NCBI GenBank assembly: GCA_002400985.2
Contig: NVRX02000006.1
Coordinates: forward strand, 33,110 to 91,515
DNA length: 58,406 bases
Direction: 5' to 3'
Source of the DNA: Candidatus Wolfebacteria bacterium
Lineage (GTDB): Bacteria; Patescibacteriota; Minisyncoccia; Phycocordibacterales; Phycocordibacteraceae
Numbering within the stretch: the stretch's first letter is position 1; each line of letters starts with the position of its first letter. Shown one piece after another: positions 4,062 to 52,454 of this stretch. The position numbers and the translations under genes are program-made. The notes beneath the pieces are model-generated. The model was given only the letters and a program-made list of their open reading frames with translations, made no database searches and was not told the origin of the DNA.

Positions 4062-4307
4062 ATGAACACTCTTGAGTTCTCAGAATCTGCTAGAAATATT
4101 ATTCTAGGGAACTACCGTCACTATAAGGGTGGAGAATATAAGGTTTTACATATTGTACGGCATTCAGAGACTCTGGAAGAATTAGTTGTATATCAGGATA
4201 AAAATAACTCTGAACTAGTATGGGCACGTCCTTTGGAAATGTTTATTGGTGAAGAGGACTATAAGGGGGATCGTGTAAAACGATTTACGTATCTTTCTTC
4301 AAATTAA
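4062..4307 (+). CDS. DUF1653 domain protein, 81 aa
   Basis: It has the DUF1653 pattern: GNYRHYKGGEYKVLHIVRHSETLEELVVYQ, then LVWARPLEMF and a closing RF. This small SH3-like family has no firmly known role. It begins 2 nt after the AbrB-like gene, so the two are probably co-transcribed. Its 3' end overlaps the convergent msrB gene by 23 bp. Confidence 0.8.
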   Translation: MNTLEFSESARNIILGNYRHYKGGEYKVLHIVRHSETLEELVVYQDKNNSELVWARPLEMFIGEEDYKGDRVKRFTYLSSN

Positions 4308-4683
4308 GTGCTCCAGAATTAATACAGTATCGTAAACCTCCTTTTTCTTTTGGATCGTCTTCAAATACGTGACCAAGATGGCTGCTACAATTTTTACAAC
4401 GCACTTCGGTTCGAACCATTCCCAATGTGTTGTCTTCAACAAGTTCAATAGATTTTTGAGTTACTGGATCAGTAAAACTTGGCCACCCACTTCCTGAGTC
4501 AAATTTTGTATCAGATGAAAATAGCTTAGCCCCACAAGCTTTACAATAATAAGAGCCGTCTTCTTTTGTATTAATATATTCTCCAGAAAAAGGTTTTTCA
4601 GTGGTACCTTCTCTAAGTATTGAATACTCTTCTTTTGAGAGTCTCTTTTTTAATGATTCTTCTGATTCCATATTATTAGCCAT
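4285..4683 (-). CDS. msrB: Peptide-methionine (R)-S-oxide reductase MsrB
   Basis: MsrB reduces methionine-R-sulfoxide in proteins. The full 132-aa domain is present: zinc-binding pairs CKAC and CKNC, the GSGWPSF signature, and the catalytic cysteine in RYCINSGAL. No signal peptide, so it is cytosolic. A second in-frame ATG (MESEESL) four codons in is an alternative start. Electrons could come from thioredoxin and the TrxB encoded at 35.5 kb (inference). Confidence 0.95.
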   Translation of the reverse strand: MANNMESEESLKKRLSKEEYSILREGTTEKPFSGEYINTKEDGSYYCKACGAKLFSSDTKFDSGSGWPSFTDPVTQKSIELVEDNTLGMVRTEVRCKNCSSHLGHVFEDDPKEKGGLRYCINSGALNLKKDT

Positions 4684-4729
4684 TGTAGCATTTGCGTAAG
4701 TTGGTAATGTTCTATAGGATTGTGTGTAT

Positions 4730-5206
4730 ATGAAAAATTATACAGGACTCGCATGGGCAGCTGTGATTATATCTTTTGTGGGGCTCACAAATACATTCTA
4801 TCTTGTGCAGTCACATGTTACGGGAGAGTCACTCAACTGTGGCATTTTAAATGGATGTAACATTGTTGCGGCAAGTCCATATTCTGTAATCCTGGGGGTT
4901 CCACTGGCTTCTTGGGGCGTACTATTTTACTTTGGTGTTTTTGTAATATCGGCAACAATGCTTATGGTTCGAGTGCGCACACTTTCACACATATTCACAT
5001 TTATGACAGCTGTTGGATTTCTCGCATCTCTATATTTTGTATATTTACAGGTATACGTAATAAAGGCTGTGTGTATGTATTGTATGTTCTCAGCAATACT
5101 TTCAACACTCCTTCTCTTGATTGCACTTCTTATCATTCGAATTCCTCGACAGTCTCCTCGATACACTGATCTTATTCCACCAATGATGCGTAAGGAGGGT
5201 AAGTAG
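4730..5206 (+). CDS. Vitamin K epoxide reductase (VKOR) family membrane protein
   Basis: A 158-aa four- or five-helix membrane protein. Bacterial VKOR homologues replace DsbB and reoxidise a DsbA-like oxidase. Both cysteine elements are visible: an early pair (SLNCGILNGCNIVAASPYS) and the active-site CxxC in KAVCMYCMFSA. The ORF track starts at a GTG (4724); the ATG at 4730 gives MKNYTGLAW. No thioredoxin domain is fused. It probably supports disulfide formation in exported cysteine-containing proteins such as the 1423 gene product (inference). Confidence 0.9.
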   Translation: MKNYTGLAWAAVIISFVGLTNTFYLVQSHVTGESLNCGILNGCNIVAASPYSVILGVPLASWGVLFYFGVFVISATMLMVRVRTLSHIFTFMTAVGFLASLYFVYLQVYVIKAVCMYCMFSAILSTLLLLIALLIIRIPRQSPRYTDLIPPMMRKEGK

Positions 5207-47118: not shown

Positions 47119-47652
47119 ATGAATTTTTCTAAACCACAAGACATAGTGTTGCAAATGGGTCTGCGCGAAGGCATGCGCGTTGTTGATATTGGAAGTGGCA
47201 TTGGGCACTACACACTTGCCGCCGCACCTATTGTTGGGTCTTCTGGCCGTGTGTACGCTATAGATGTACAAGAAGAAATACTTAAGAGTTTGAAGAGAGA
47301 GGTTACAGAGAGAGGGTTTAGTAATGTAAGCACTATATGGGGAGACGTTGAAAAACCTTTTGGCACAAAGCTTAAGGGGGAAGTTGTAGATGCGGCTATT
47401 GTTGCAAATGTACTATTTCAGTTTGAAGATAAGGTTGCTGCCATTACAGAAATACGTCGTATTTTAAAGCCAGGTGGGCTCGTTTTGGTTGTAGATTGGG
47501 CTGGGTGCTATAACAACATTGGGCCAGAGGAGACCTGTGTCGTGGAGGAACATACAGCAGAGCGCCTTTTCATAGACATGGGATTTCATAAAGAAAAAGC
47601 ATTTAGGGCAGGGCCGCACCATTACGCATTAGTATTTAAAAAGCCATCATGA
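47119..47652 (+). CDS. Class I SAM-dependent methyltransferase
   Basis: 177 aa. Motif I VVDIGSGIGHYTLAAAPIVG, acidic loop VYAIDVQEEILKSL, motif near GDVEKPFGTKL and EIRRILKPGGLVLVVDW. It belongs to the small UbiE/MT-11-like group; the substrate is unknown. The stop overlaps the SBP start by 4 bp (ATGA), so it heads the operon leading into the membrane-protein array. Confidence 0.88.
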   Translation: MNFSKPQDIVLQMGLREGMRVVDIGSGIGHYTLAAAPIVGSSGRVYAIDVQEEILKSLKREVTERGFSNVSTIWGDVEKPFGTKLKGEVVDAAIVANVLFQFEDKVAAITEIRRILKPGGLVLVVDWAGCYNNIGPEETCVVEEHTAERLFIDMGFHKEKAFRAGPHHYALVFKKPS

Positions 47653-48893
47653 AGCCATTTCAATTAATTCTTACAGGAGTCTTTGTTGTATTCGCAATTA
47701 TAGGATTATTGGTATTTGCAGGAGCAAATCCAGGAAGCGGAAAAAATACTATTGGAAATATTGTTATATGGGGAACACTTCCTTCGGGAGAGATGCGAGA
47801 GGTTCTTGATGCAGTACGTACTACACGGTCTGATTTTGATGGTGTGACATATACCGAGGTAGGTAGCGATGACTTCCACAGATTGTATACAGAAGCACTC
47901 GCAGTTGATCGTGGTCCAGACATGATCCTTGTTCCTCACACGCTTCTTGTTTCTGAAGCAGAGACACTTCCTGCAATTTCATTTGATTCATTTAGTCAGA
48001 GAGATTTTGAAGATACATTTATAACAGGTGCAGATATTGTTATTGCAAATGGATATTACGGAGTACCCGCAGGTATTGATCCTTTGGTGATGTATTACAA
48101 CAAATCATTGTTGAATAATGCACGAGTAAGTGAAGCTCCAAAATTCTGGGAGCAGTTTATAGGGCTTGCTCCACGGTTTGTAGAAACATCAGAAGGTCTG
48201 TCTATTGAAAAGAGTTTTGTTGCACTTGGCTCATATGAAAATATTCGATATGCAGAAAAAATCCTTGCAAGTTTCTTTTTCCAGGTTGGTTCTCCAATAA
48301 AAGACACAAAAGGAAACATTGTGCTTACCGATACAAAAGATACTGAAAGTGCGCTTCGTTTTTATACTGAGTTCGCAAATCCAAATACTAGTGCGTATAG
48401 TTGGAATAAAAGTGTAAAAGAAGATAGGCGTGCATTTCTTTCAAATGATCTTGCGCTGTACTTTGCTCCCGCAAGCGAAGGAGAAGCTCTGAAAGAAGCA
48501 AATCCAAACATCTCTATTGGAACAGCTCCATTTCCACAGCTAGAAGGGGGAACTCCTGTTGTGTATGGAGATGTATATGTGTTTGCCGTTCCACGAGACT
48601 CAAGGAATGTATTTGGTGCAAAAACTGCAGCGCTTGCATTTATAAACGTTACTGTGGCAGAAGCATTTTCTTCAATTACAGGAATTGCACCAGTGCGAAG
48701 AGACTTACTTGGTGTGGAACAAAAAGATCCTTTGGTAAGTCTTTCGTATGACCAGGCGTTTATTGCAAAAGGATGGCTCTCTCCACAACCTGCACAGGTA
48801 GACAGGGTGTTCTCTGCTATGGTTACAGATGTAGTAAGTGGAAGGAATGATGCACAAGAAGCAATCCTTACAGCACAACGATCACTAAAATAA
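47649..48893 (+). CDS. Family 1 extracellular solute-binding protein
   Basis: 414 aa with an N-terminal helix/signal anchor (LILTGVFVVFAIIGLLVFAGA, no lipobox Cys). The family-1 fold is indicated by GPDMILVPHTLL, GVPAGIDPLVMYYNKSLLNNA, DLALYFAPASEGEALKEANPNISIGTAPFPQ and VYVFAVPRDSRN. Such proteins normally capture sugars for ABC importers, but no permease or ATPase gene is next to it. Instead five small membrane proteins follow directly. The role here is open. Confidence 0.88.
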   Translation: MKPFQLILTGVFVVFAIIGLLVFAGANPGSGKNTIGNIVIWGTLPSGEMREVLDAVRTTRSDFDGVTYTEVGSDDFHRLYTEALAVDRGPDMILVPHTLLVSEAETLPAISFDSFSQRDFEDTFITGADIVIANGYYGVPAGIDPLVMYYNKSLLNNARVSEAPKFWEQFIGLAPRFVETSEGLSIEKSFVALGSYENIRYAEKILASFFFQVGSPIKDTKGNIVLTDTKDTESALRFYTEFANPNTSAYSWNKSVKEDRRAFLSNDLALYFAPASEGEALKEANPNISIGTAPFPQLEGGTPVVYGDVYVFAVPRDSRNVFGAKTAALAFINVTVAEAFSSITGIAPVRRDLLGVEQKDPLVSLSYDQAFIAKGWLSPQPAQVDRVFSAMVTDVVSGRNDAQEAILTAQRSLK

Positions 48894-48894
48894 T

Positions 48895-49308
48895 ATGCGA
48901 ACATTACTCACAATTCTTTTTGGACTTTCATTAGCTTTAACTCCTGTGGTTGCTTTTGCTCAGCCAGGAGGTATTGGTGGCACTGATGGCACTGGAGGAA
49001 GTGGCGGTATTGGAGGAACACAAGAAGTTCAAAGTAACGGCATAAAACTAATTAATCCGCTTGCGGTAGACTCTCTTGAAGAGTTCCTTGCAGAAATACT
49101 CAAGTTTATTGTCCGTCTCGGTACTCTTGTGGTCATTGTTATGATTGTGGTTGTTGGGTTTATGTTTGTGGCGGCCAGAGGAAATCCTGAAGCAATTAGC
49201 AAGGCCAGAACAGCACTTCTGTGGACACTTGTAGGTGCTGTTATATTAATAGGTGCAGAAATTATTGCACAGGCTATTGCAGAAACAGTTAAAGCAATTG
49301 GTTCATGA
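48895..49308 (+). CDS. TrbC/VirB2-like two-helix protein (array member 1)
   Basis: 137 aa. Signal peptide MRTLLTILFGLSLALTPVVAFAQ, a Gly-rich stretch (PGGIGGTDGTGGSGGIGG), then two helices around a short polar loop: LGTLVVIVMIVVVGFMFVAARGNPEAISKARTALLWTLVGAVILIGAEIIAQ. This is the layout of VirB2/TrbC pilins. It starts 1 nt after the SBP and overlaps the next ORF by 4 bp (ATGA). No other type IV secretion gene is in the window. Confidence 0.75.
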   Translation: MRTLLTILFGLSLALTPVVAFAQPGGIGGTDGTGGSGGIGGTQEVQSNGIKLINPLAVDSLEEFLAEILKFIVRLGTLVVIVMIVVVGFMFVAARGNPEAISKARTALLWTLVGAVILIGAEIIAQAIAETVKAIGS

Positions 49309-49550
49309 CATTTAAAATGTTTGTTACAGCATTAATAGATTTTTTTAATACTGCGGTAATTCCGTTGTTGATGTCACTGGTCCTTCTCATCTTTATGTGG
49401 GGGGTAGTACAGTACTTCTTTATTAAAAAGGAAGATCCCGAAGCTCGTATTGAAGGAGCTAAGTTCATGATGTGGGGAGTTATTGCCTTTGCGGTAATTG
49501 TCTCTATGTGGGGGTTGGTGAGTTTATTACTTAATTCGTTTGGAATCTAA
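49305..49550 (+). CDS. Two-helix WG-motif membrane protein (array member 2)
   Basis: 81 aa, no signal peptide. Two helices: IPLLMSLVLLIFMWGVVQYFFI and KFMMWGVIAFAVIVSMWGLVSLLL, joined by a charged loop (KKEDPEARIEGA). The second helix repeats the WG-x(8-9)-WG pattern seen in members 3 and 4. Overlaps member 1 and lies 4 nt before member 3. Confidence 0.75.
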   Translation: MTFKMFVTALIDFFNTAVIPLLMSLVLLIFMWGVVQYFFIKKEDPEARIEGAKFMMWGVIAFAVIVSMWGLVSLLLNSFGI

Positions 49551-49554
49551 TATT

Positions 49555-50025
49555 ATGAAAAAGAATATACAAATAATTGGAATGTTGGCACTCATGGCAT
49601 TTATATTTGTGCCGATGTTTGCACATGCGCAGCTTACTGGAGGCAATATTGGAGAAGTTACAGTAGGTATAACAAATTTTATAGGAACCACCCTAATGAC
49701 ACTAGTATTTGCAATTGCACTACTTATGTTCGTGTGGGGACTTTTTAGTAGCTTTATACTAGGAGGAGCAAATGAAGAAAAGCGAAAAGAGGGAAAACAG
49801 CTTATGCTGTGGGGGATCATTGCCTTTGCGGTAATGGTGTCAATATGGGGGCTTGTGAGCATTATCACTACATCTTTTGACCTTAATGGAAACAAGAGTG
49901 TAACTATTCCAACCATTCCTTCCACTTCTGGATCTGCCGGTTCTCCATTTACCACAGGCGGTTCTTCTGCAGGAACTCCTTCTACGCCTGATCCGGTACC
50001 TACAGATGGATTCTTCGGAATATAA
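49555..50025 (+). CDS. Two-helix WG-motif membrane protein with signal peptide and Ser/Pro/Thr tail (array member 3)
   Basis: 156 aa from the ATG at 49555 (MKKNIQIIG), preferred to 49540, which overlaps member 2. Signal peptide ending near AHAQ, helix TLVFAIALLMFVWGLFSSFIL, loop GGANEEKRKEGKQ, helix LMLWGIIAFAVMVSIWGLVSII, then a low-complexity tail (TIPSTSGSAGSPFTTGGSSAGTPSTPDP) probably exposed outside. Very similar to member 4 through the helices. Confidence 0.75.
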   Translation: MKKNIQIIGMLALMAFIFVPMFAHAQLTGGNIGEVTVGITNFIGTTLMTLVFAIALLMFVWGLFSSFILGGANEEKRKEGKQLMLWGIIAFAVMVSIWGLVSIITTSFDLNGNKSVTIPTIPSTSGSAGSPFTTGGSSAGTPSTPDPVPTDGFFGI

Positions 50026-50059
50026 AAACAGCAAGATTATCCACATAAATGAGTATGTA

Positions 50060-50089
50060 TTGCAATAATGTCAGATAAGACGGTATTAT
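50060..50089 (+). promoter_or_regulatory. Internal promoter, leaderless start of array member 4
   Basis: TTGCAA (50060-50065), 18-bp spacer, TATTAT (50084-50089), 7 nt before the ATG at 50097. Confidence 0.5.
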
Positions 50090-50096
50090 AGGTTGT

Positions 50097-50471
50097 ATGA
50101 AAAAGAACACACAAATTTTAGGTACACTTAGTGGGTTAGCATTATACGCGGTAATGGTAATGCCTCTTGTAGCAGTGGCTCAGTTTGCAGGATCAGGCGT
50201 AGAAGATCTTGCGTCAGATATTATTACTTTTATTAATGAAACTCTTATTCCTCTTGTATTTGCACTAGCATTGATAGTGTTTATCTGGGGACTTTTCCAA
50301 AGTTTTATTATCGGTGGAACAAATGAAGAGAAGAGAGCTGAGGGAAAGCAACTCATGATGTGGGGAATTATTGCATTTGCAGTAATGGTATCAGTATGGG
50401 GACTTGTGAATATTCTTACAGGAACACTTGACCTTGATAATACTGTAGATCTTCCAGAGGTATTATTATAA
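50097..50471 (+). CDS. Two-helix WG-motif membrane protein with signal peptide (array member 4)
   Basis: 124 aa. Signal peptide MKKNTQILGTLSGLALYAVMVMPLVAVAQ, helix LIPLVFALALIVFIWGLFQSFII, loop GGTNEEKRAEGKQ, helix LMMWGIIAFAVMVSVWGLVNIL, short acidic tail. Nearly identical in its core to member 3, indicating a recent tandem duplication. It has its own promoter. Confidence 0.78.
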   Translation: MKKNTQILGTLSGLALYAVMVMPLVAVAQFAGSGVEDLASDIITFINETLIPLVFALALIVFIWGLFQSFIIGGTNEEKRAEGKQLMMWGIIAFAVMVSVWGLVNILTGTLDLDNTVDLPEVLL

Positions 50472-50481
50472 CTAAACCGTA

Positions 50482-50748
50482 ATGAATCTAGATAGATTAC
50501 TTGACGGGTTTGTTCGAGAGTTAGTAAACCCATTCATAATACTTCTTATTGGTGTTGCAACAATCATTTTCATCTATGGAGTTCTAGAATTTCTAGGAAC
50601 CTTTGGAAAAGGGGATGAGGCACGAATAAAAGGACGTAGTCATATGGTATGGGGACTTATTGGGCTAGCCATAATGTTTGGCGTGTTCGGAATCTTGGGA
50701 ATTGTATTACGTACATTCGGCATAGATGCTCCATTAGACGTTCTGTAG
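50482..50748 (+). CDS. Two-helix membrane protein (array member 5)
   Basis: 88 aa, no signal peptide. Helix LVNPFIILLIGVATIIFIYGVLEFL, loop GTFGKGDEARIKGRS, helix HMVWGLIGLAIMFGVFGILGIVL. The pattern WG and FG instead of WG/WG shows a diverged paralogue. It ends the array and is followed by a terminator. Confidence 0.75.
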   Translation: MNLDRLLDGFVRELVNPFIILLIGVATIIFIYGVLEFLGTFGKGDEARIKGRSHMVWGLIGLAIMFGVFGILGIVLRTFGIDAPLDVL

Positions 50749-50756
50749 ATAAAAAT

Positions 50757-50789
50757 AAAAACGGCGATCCAATAAAGGTCGCCGTTTTT
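50757..50789. terminator. Bidirectional terminator (array / SPFH operon)
   Basis: AAAAACGGCGA, TCCAATAAAGG, TCGCCGTTTTT. It serves the array on the plus strand and the SPFH operon on the minus strand. Confidence 0.9.
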
Positions 50790-50794
50790 GTTTG

Positions 50795-50811
50795 TGTCAG
50801 GTTAAACAAAA
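50795..50811. repeat. Inverted repeat, left arm, flanking the SPFH unit
   Basis: TGTCAGGTTAAACAAAA is the perfect 17-bp reverse complement of 52474-52490. It sits between the terminator and the stop of the 156-aa gene. Confidence 0.8.
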
Positions 50812-50817
50812 GATTAA

Positions 50818-51288
50818 TCAGGAGTCGCAAACACGCGGCTGCTGGTTTCCTCCAGCTCGTTTCTGCCACGTTTTAAACACCAATATTTCACTGGATGTAT
50901 TTACGATCTTGTACCCGTCAAAGTAGAGTGTCCCTTGTACTGTTCGTGTATTAATGCGAACAACATAAGGAAGTATACTTTTGCAAGGGTCAAGATACGC
51001 ATGCCACGCACCGTCTTTTCGAAGCATGAAGACTGGTGAAGATTCACCTGCCTCAAGTACAAATTCAGATGGTGTGAGGGGTGCAGAAATTGTCTGCCTC
51101 CGTGTCTCCGGTCTACTGTTAAGTAGATTAAAGACAAAAATAGCAGAAAAAATTGCAGCAATAAGCCAGAAAGTTTTCCAGGCATTTAACCAGGTAAGTC
51201 TCCTGCCGTTCATTTTTGGCATCTTCTTACTTCCGTAAAGAAGAAGAAAGATGACAAGCATTGTGGCCAGTGTAATGAAAATAACCAT
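50818..51288 (-). CDS. Single-anchor membrane protein, 156 aa, partner of the SPFH gene
   Basis: Helix VIFITLATMLVIFLLLYG, a basic loop (KKMPKMNGRRLTW), a second helix (FWLIAAIFSAIFVFNLL), then a soluble extracytoplasmic domain with two Cys (LDPCKSIL, RVCDS). Start overlaps the SPFH stop (TAATG), preceded by GGAGGAAG, so the two are translationally coupled. NfeD-like partners are common for SPFH proteins but I see no NfeD signature. Function unknown. Confidence 0.75.
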   Translation of the reverse strand: MVIFITLATMLVIFLLLYGSKKMPKMNGRRLTWLNAWKTFWLIAAIFSAIFVFNLLNSRPETRRQTISAPLTPSEFVLEAGESSPVFMLRKDGAWHAYLDPCKSILPYVVRINTRTVQGTLYFDGYKIVNTSSEILVFKTWQKRAGGNQQPRVCDS

Positions 51289-52454
51289 TATACTTCCTCC
51301 GGCTTAGTGTTGTCTTTATTAAGCAACCTTGCAGCAGCAGCCTTTATCAGGCTATCACTGTCAGAGTCAGATGACAGGCCATTGGTAACAATAACAGTGT
51401 TGCCATTTGCACCAACCTTATCAAGTGTAAGGAGTTTTAGTATATCAAGCCCATATTCGTGAGCCTTGGCTGTCTTAGCAATTACTTCAAATGCCTTTGC
51501 GTTAGCTTTGCCTACTTTACGTATGTCATAGGCCTTGCCGTCAGCAAGTATTCTCATTGCGTCTCTTTCTCCTTCTACTTTTTTACGACGTACATCAGCT
51601 GCAATTACTGAAATTGTACGTTCTTGAGTAAGCTCTCGGTATTCTCCGAGAGGGTCAATCTTTAGAAGATACGCGTTCTCTATTGTGACGCCATAAGTTT
51701 CAGAAACCCACTCTTTGATGGATTTTCCTGGACCAGGACCATCTCCAGGAGTGTGACCGGCTGTATCTTCAGCCTCTTGAGCACAAAGAATTCGATCAGA
51801 AAAACCGCCTTCTTTATGTCTGCTTGTCTGCTCCTTTATAAGTTCTTCATATGTTTTACTTGCCGCATAATCTTTTGCAATCTCGTTGAGAATACTCTCG
51901 ATTATTTGCGGCCAGTCCTCATTCATGAAGAGGGCTTTATATGGGTTTGTAATCCTTATAATTGCCACATACTCTAGAGTAACTGGAATAATCTCGCCAT
52001 CATCACCGTGCGTTTCACCATCCGGCAAAACCATCGAGTATGGAAAGCGAGTTGCAAAAGCAAAGTTGGTTGACACATTAGTACGAGCAACAACCTTGCT
52101 TTCTTTTCCGTCTTGTTGCATTTCCCGCCATGACAGTTTGTACTGGTGTACATTCTGCGCGAAAGGAATTCCAACAAATTTCCAACCAAATATATTCCAA
52201 GGATTTTTCTTAGGTGTTGTGTCAGGAATAATTTCCCAACGCTCATCATCTCCTCCAGTTCCTTTGAATTTATGTCCAGAATATACCATTACAAAACGAT
52301 TAAATGCATTACCGTTCATAATGGCTTGGACAGTTCCTTCTTTTGGCTTTGTAAAAACAATGCCATTGTCCGCAAAGAGTCTGTCGACCCAAAACGGAGA
52401 GGTAAGAGCCACTCCGACACCTACCGAAGTCAATACTGTTGATAAAAGCAACAT
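51288..52454 (-). CDS. SPFH/Band 7 domain membrane protein
   Basis: 388 aa. N-terminal helix (LLLSTVLTSVGVGVALTSPFW), an SPFH-type beta domain (TNVSTNFAFATRFPYS, VTLEYVAIIRITNPYKALF), then the helical region typical of band-7 proteins: GVTIENAYLLKIDPLGEYRELTQERTISVIAADVRRKKVEGERDAMRILADGKAY. Stomatin/flotillin-like proteins form large membrane rings. Strong SD (GAAAGGAGTGAG) before the ATG. Forms an operon with the 156-aa gene, bracketed by 17-bp inverted repeats. Confidence 0.85.
   Translation of the reverse strand: MLLLSTVLTSVGVGVALTSPFWVDRLFADNGIVFTKPKEGTVQAIMNGNAFNRFVMVYSGHKFKGTGGDDERWEIIPDTTPKKNPWNIFGWKFVGIPFAQNVHQYKLSWREMQQDGKESKVVARTNVSTNFAFATRFPYSMVLPDGETHGDDGEIIPVTLEYVAIIRITNPYKALFMNEDWPQIIESILNEIAKDYAASKTYEELIKEQTSRHKEGGFSDRILCAQEAEDTAGHTPGDGPGPGKSIKEWVSETYGVTIENAYLLKIDPLGEYRELTQERTISVIAADVRRKKVEGERDAMRILADGKAYDIRKVGKANAKAFEVIAKTAKAHEYGLDILKLLTLDKVGANGNTVIVTNGLSSDSDSDSLIKAAAARLLNKDNTKPEEV

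Follow-up and report, generated by a model that had tools for sequence, protein, structure and literature searches.

The analysed window, a stretch of 58,406 nucleotides from a Candidatus Wolfebacteria bacterium, contains at positions 47649-50748 six open reading frames, all on the + strand and almost contiguous, in which a gene for a solute-binding protein (SBP) is followed by five genes for two-helix membrane proteins. Judged from their sequences, the five small proteins are almost certainly VirB2-type pilins of a type IV secretion system (T4SS), and the SBP is quite likely coupled functionally to this system. With moderate confidence the locus is interpreted as an accessory module of the T4SS, in which a VirB2 pilus of differentiated subunits would be joined by a dedicated extracytoplasmic receptor for a solute or glycan, without an ATP-binding cassette (ABC) importer. 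The SBP-T4SS association is the new part; the pilin family and the tandem arrays were already known, and no new class of machine is proposed.

Patescibacteria are ultra-small and probably host-dependent. Tandem VirB2 arrays with 2-11 divergent pilins were described from this group in 2025 (PMC12102498), and Southlakia epibionticum requires its T4SS, pilins included, to grow on its host (PMC10633639). The patescibacterial T4SS, for which essentiality in epibiotic growth thus refers to one species tested, has no recognisable coupling and relaxase proteins. The strongly conserved SBP provides a concrete handle on this system, as its ligand would tell what the T4SS recognises or takes up. It is also a candidate component for host contact, a step for which no T4SS adhesin had been found.

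Pilin identity and order of subunit types

In profile searches the family PF18895 (T4SS_pilin) matched all five array members with E values from 3.7e-5 to 7.6e-11. Members 1 to 4 exceeded the curated cut-off of 26.6 bits and member 5 stayed just under it (24.2 bits). The best NCBIfam match of each member was NF045849 (Mbov_0395/MMCAP2_0565 pilin-like conjugal protein; E 1e-4 to 3e-10), with the scores of all five under the 40-bit cut-off of that model. The match to PF18895 in all five members, together with an arrangement that recurs across the phylum, argues against chance.

Pilin 1 (48895-49308) carries a signal peptide and a Gly-rich spacer and is TrbC-like: it scored 36.9 bits with PF18895 and 28.0 bits with TrbC/VirB2 (PF04956), the latter just over that model's own cut-off. 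Pilin 2 (49305-49550; 81 amino acids, aa) has no signal peptide and scored 31.9 bits with PF18895 and 33.5 bits with NF045849. Pilin 3 (49555-50025; PF18895 40.1 bits) combines a signal peptide with a Ser/Pro/Thr/Gly-rich C-terminal tail; its start was placed at the ATG at 49555, and a TTG upstream at 49540 is also possible. Pilin 4 (50097-50471; PF18895 42.4 bits; 35-sequence alignment) has a signal peptide and represents the WG-core type, which is the commonest type in the arrays. Pilin 5 (50482-50748) comprises 88 aa and lacks a signal peptide.

The signal peptides of members 1, 3 and 4, as read from the sequence, are of the Sec type with A-x-A ahead of Q (AFAQ, AHAQ and AVAQ), and members 2 and 5 start straight in helix 1. 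The second helix carries the motif MMWGVIAFAVIVSMWGLV, LMLWGIIAFAVMVSIWGLV and LMMWGIIAFAVMVSVWGLV in members 2-4 and HMVWGLIGLAIMFGVFGIL in member 5. The loop between the helices follows [D/E/P]E[A/K]R..G, with EEKR..G in member 4. A preliminary description of the locus had named the motif shared by members 2-4 and diverged in member 5, as well as the distribution of the signal peptides, and both are present. Its loop consensus (D/E)E(A/K)R..G applies in general but not to member 2, which reads PEAR. The proposed closeness of member 1 to VirB2/TrbC is borne out by PF04956, but PF18895 is the better match. The suggestion that the array is pilin-like agrees with the family assignment of the members, which did not turn out to belong to unrelated families.

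A pair of hydrophobic helices with a short charged loop between them, a trait of T4SS pilins, is evident from the loop sequence and from the AlphaFold2 model of member 4, a helical hairpin with helices at residues 35-72 and 77-110 (predicted local distance difference test, pLDDT, 78). A fold search with this model found nothing at E <= 0.001 in the PDB, a hairpin by itself being too unspecific. Profile searches of the PDB with the pilins gave matches no better than E 0.003-0.005, with the conjugal protein TraM (8cw4) at E 0.0046. As a separate observation, PF18895 domains were also found within open frames of 3090-3577 aa (G372:C3:1024194-1024397, G321:C10:51745-51957 and G220:C12:276525-276737, as genome, contig and positions), which encode giant pilin-domain proteins.

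For typing of the arrays, every member of 50 arrays from the same order was assigned to its best-matching window member (W1 to W5, pilins 1 and 5 defining W1 and W5) and the resulting orders were compared with shuffles. The W5 type occupied the last position in 44 of the 50 arrays (shuffled mean 9.3, maximum 18) and the W1 type stood first or second in 46 (shuffles: mean 21, maximum 33). By sequence type, the array members are thus position-specific types and not random copies, in line with the earlier proposal of a hetero-oligomeric rather than a redundant array, as these types are kept across the order. It has been proposed for the tandem virB2 genes of Bartonella and Anaplasma that the diversity of the pilins is a means of varying antigens or host range, in which case the SBP would be a mere conserved neighbour. 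This reading is preferred in PMC12102498, and it is in keeping with the pilin number, which varies from 3 to 7 within the order, and with the middle members, which are variable and divergent. It is nevertheless quite improbable for the locus as a whole, because the same first and last subunit types recur across the families of the order far above the shuffles and because the SBP persists where other neighbours vanish. The middle members may vary for antigenic reasons; the fixed first and last types are more readily explained by a structure whose subunits are differentiated than by free antigenic variation, and position-specific types point to a built structure with fixed parts.

The T4SS core and the linkage of SBP and pilin genes

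The preliminary description had found no T4SS ATPase. This is correct for the window but not for the genome, in which contig C3 encodes a split VirB4 (PF19044, 92.6 bits; 91.7 bits for the match at C3:125717-126622) and a PrgI/VirB3 protein whose gene overlaps VirB4 (PF12666, 30.5 bits). A system without a T4SS is not supported, as a VirB4-type ATPase is encoded in this genome and, among 380 genomes of the phylum, in 359. For the same reason the array is most plausibly a part of the T4SS that is encoded apart from its core. The core run on C3 also contains a 721-aa protein that is VirB6-like in size, hydrophobicity and gene position only and has no Pfam match, and a sixth pilin-domain protein of 350 aa with an N-terminal PF18895 hairpin and a long cysteine-containing tail. 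The latter adjoins a secreted protein of 332 aa that matches no Pfam family (the two at L023:3143-4195 and 4098-5096, - strand), and similar pilin-domain proteins of 300-400 aa occur in many relatives. Compared with an MPF-FATA-like T4SS, the core of this genome has VirB4 and PrgI by profile, but VirB8 was not identified. It lies close to genes reading as rnpA and yidC.

Within the order, VirB4 was detected in 57 of 61 sampled genomes, and pilins were detected in 372 of the 380 genomes of the phylum. Co-occurrence of presence and absence was discarded as a line of evidence, since pilins and VirB4 are both near universal in the phylum and their co-occurrence is uninformative. A membrane complex of two-helix proteins and the SBP that is independent of the T4SS, such as a microdomain or the pore suggested in the preliminary description, would be compatible with the location of array and core on different contigs and with the two members lacking signal peptides. 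It is regarded as very improbable in view of the T4SS pilin family to which the members belong, the presence of VirB4 in nearly all relatives sampled, and loci in which SBP, pilins and VirB4/PrgI are encoded in a single run. An example of such a run is methyltransferase-SBP-pilin-pilin-PrgI-VirB4N-VirB4C (locus L212). In several more genomes the match coordinates place VirB4 on the SBP contig within 30 kb, for example G230, G269, G078, G304, G130, G157, G114 and G096 of family f66 at ~18-23 kb.

The SBP is present as a single copy in 57 of the 61 genomes of the order sample. In the other four, gyrA is cut by the contig end (G007, G057) or missing (G042, G053); loss of the SBP from these genomes was therefore rejected, with assembly gaps as the likely cause. 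At least one pilin gene lies directly downstream of the SBP gene on the same strand in 56 of the 57 loci, and at least three (3-7) in 54; the sole locus without an adjoining pilin gene belongs to a genome that is 61% complete. Among named public genomes, which partly coincide with the order sample and include Kaiser-, Nomura-, Zambryski-, Taylor-, Campbell-, Adler-, Yonath- and Wolfebacteria among others, SBP and pilin genes were adjacent in 68 of 68 loci with room.

Linkage within the order extends to gyrA (55/57 loci) and to a methyltransferase gene (57/57). In other orders and classes, where the loci were sampled from the half with the higher scores among 284 SBP matches across the phylum, the adjacency of SBP and pilin genes was found in 52 of 60 loci, and linkage to gyrA and to the methyltransferase gene in 13 and 14 of the 60, respectively. 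An adjacency that outlasts the linkage to gyrA and the methyltransferase gene is what a functional link predicts. The synteny expected from the preliminary description is thus conserved in relatives, both within and beyond the order. In a tree of 117 SBPs those of the order grouped as a single clade, and just two label changes sufficed for the eight members of the first sample that are not linked.

The solute-binding protein and its proposed role

The gene heading the array (47649-48893) encodes a 414-aa SBP of the SBP_bac_1 sugar/oligosaccharide type, which passed the PF01547 cut-off with 54.5 against 26 bits. Its AlphaFold2 model (pLDDT 90.1) consists of an N-terminal membrane helix (anchor at residues ~3-25) followed by a two-lobed SBP, and its nearest folds in the PDB are sugar/oligosaccharide SBPs and UgpB at E ~1e-20 (Foldseek 3.8e-20 to 5ci5), in agreement with the profile search. 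Of 117 SBPs, 112 have a hydrophobic segment at the N terminus and 12 have a lipobox, so the protein is predicted to be membrane-tethered by one means or the other.

The ligand contacts of MalE are taken here to be E111 and the sugar-stacking aromatics W62, W230 and W340. E111 aligns with the conserved D144 of the SBP, W230 was not aligned, and because no aromatic residue corresponds to W62 or W340, binding of the maltodextrin type is unlikely. Near-invariant residues, in linked and unlinked members alike, are W41, D91, D144, N151, W167, G194, N198, Q212, Y239, W252, F263, P296 and Q297, among which N198 and W252 are candidate cleft-side residues. In several other lineages (loci L231, L243, L252 and L256) the SBP gene is immediately preceded by one that, by eye, reads as a GalU-type UTP-glucose-1-phosphate uridylyltransferase (KAVIPAAGFGTRFLPATK...), a further sugar-related hint.

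By gene content, the SBP is without a cognate ABC permease, as the preliminary description had supposed. The permease family PF00528 (BPD_transp_1) is absent from 44 of the 61 genomes of the order sample and from 40 of the 57 with an SBP. The sole BPD_transp_1 permease of the genome itself is encoded in a set of three genes, together with an ATPase and an anchored periplasmic-binding-type protein of its own (L032:10331-12640, on contig C2). This set reads like an importer of the SsuC/TauC type.

In the proposed mechanism the pilins would be inserted into the membrane, three via Sec signal peptides and two unprocessed, and the VirB4/PrgI/VirB6-like machine of contig C3 would assemble them in trans. 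The product could be a short pilus or a membrane-spanning conduit in which a first type resembling TrbC is combined with variable types of the WG core and a small last type. Tethered beside the T4SS on the outside of the cytoplasmic membrane, the SBP would bind a host-derived solute or a host surface glycan and thereby act as receptor of the pilus or T4SS, either to recognise the host or to deliver the ligand to the conduit, without an ABC permease. A role as host-ligand receptor is slightly favoured over other roles of the SBP. It may serve contact signalling, fixing to the host surface or solute handover.

Alternatively, the SBP fold could have been recruited as a ligand-free, rigid protein of the pilus base or tip, an adhesin or structural part with a VirB5-like role but no homology to VirB5. 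The loss of two MalE sugar-stacking aromatics, the strict gene order from SBP to pilins and the fact that no PrgB-type adhesin has been found in Patescibacteria (PMC12102498) are in favour of such a part. It is held to be somewhat unlikely, since the likely cleft residues are near-invariant even in unlinked homologues, which suggests a retained ligand. Import fed by the SBP, in which a captured host solute would be passed to the pilin/T4SS conduit instead of an ABC permease, would be consistent with the tether and the confident sugar-binding fold, with the almost invariant D144, N198 and W252, with the permease-free SBP genomes and with the domesticated import T4SSs of archaea, Ced/Ted (PMC9905601). 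It is considered unlikely, as the SBP is missing in about one quarter of the phylum while the pilins persist. Moreover, no T4SS or pilus is known to move small solutes handed over by an SBP, and the known cargo of T4SSs is DNA or protein. Equally doubtful is the far-reaching version of this idea, a phylum-wide ABC-independent uptake or recognition device in which the tethered SBP feeds or gates the pilus and the T4SS is a receptor-led importer of host small molecules, not an exporter.

Several findings weigh against the accessory module with a dedicated receptor. The array and the T4SS core are located on separate contigs in the genome itself. Within the order the whole neighbourhood is kept, gyrA and the methyltransferase gene included, so linkage there alone is weak evidence. 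In the profile alignment the MalE residues W62 and W340 are replaced by aliphatic residues and Asp, respectively. Furthermore, 96 of the 380 genomes, most of them with pilins, have no SBP match at E <= 1e-10; not every T4SS of Patescibacteria thus requires the SBP. Of 40 loci with weaker-scoring SBP homologues, only 8 have pilin genes directly downstream, and universality of the link across the phylum is therefore not claimed. On the supporting side, six other loci of this weaker group have T4SS core genes within ~8 kb: SBP-PrgI-VirB4N-VirB4C in L335, VirB4 ~2-8 kb from the SBP gene in L329, L326 and L332, and a VirB6-like gene nearby in L297 and L304.

Transcription unit, neighbouring genes and known systems

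Directly upstream of the SBP gene, a class I methyltransferase is encoded on the + strand (47119-47652; PF13847, 71 bits). Because the two genes overlap by 4 bases and a terminator follows only after the last pilin gene, the transcription unit probably starts upstream of the SBP gene, and the methyltransferase gene is probably co-transcribed with SBP gene and array; its membership in the module is only putative. The terminator, a strong intrinsic hairpin with a U-run on the + strand (folded stretch 50748-50800; -26.4 kcal/mol, z -9.17), marks the end of the unit after pilin 5. A promoter scan of the region gave promoter-like sites not above those of shuffled sequences. The 71-bp gap ahead of pilin 4 contains the promoter-like sequence TTGCAA-18-TATTAT (50060-50089). 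A convergent gene pair on the - strand at 50818-52454 encodes an orphan 156-aa membrane protein, which was found in none of the other fetched loci of the order, and an SPFH/Band-7 protein, which was found in 9 of 57.

A literature search for SBPs in connection with T4SSs or the candidate phyla radiation (CPR) found nothing relevant, with supplements and most subscription papers lying outside the search. The closest known systems are the patescibacterial VirB2 arrays (PMC12102498, PMC10633639), which likewise consist of divergent tandem copies of PF18895/VirB2 pilins on the chromosome and are served by a VirB4/PrgI core without outer-membrane parts; unlike these, the array described here lies off the contig of the core and is headed by an SBP, which is mentioned in neither main text. 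With the SBPs of sugar ABC importers (MalE, CpMnBP1 4r9g, Tlet_1705 5ci5 and UgpB 4mfi) the SBP shares the two-lobe fold, the GPD and P..W motifs, the acidic residue at MalE E111 and a membrane tether. In contrast to them it has no permease or ATPase partner genes, has lost the counterparts of MalE W62 and W340 and is tied to T4SS genes, and the SBPs of the order have an uncleaved-looking N-terminal anchor instead of a lipobox. The Mbov_0395/MMCAP2_0565 family (NF045849) belongs, by its model name, to an integrative element, whereas the present locus is a fixed chromosomal one. The archaeal Ced/Ted DNA-import pili (PMC9905601) are archaeal systems with one main pilin per filament and without mention of an SBP, but they are likewise domesticated T4SSs with VirB2-like pilins, in which TedC is processed by signal peptidase, resembling members 1, 3 and 4 with A-x-A before Q, and CedA1 is unprocessed, resembling members 2 and 5.

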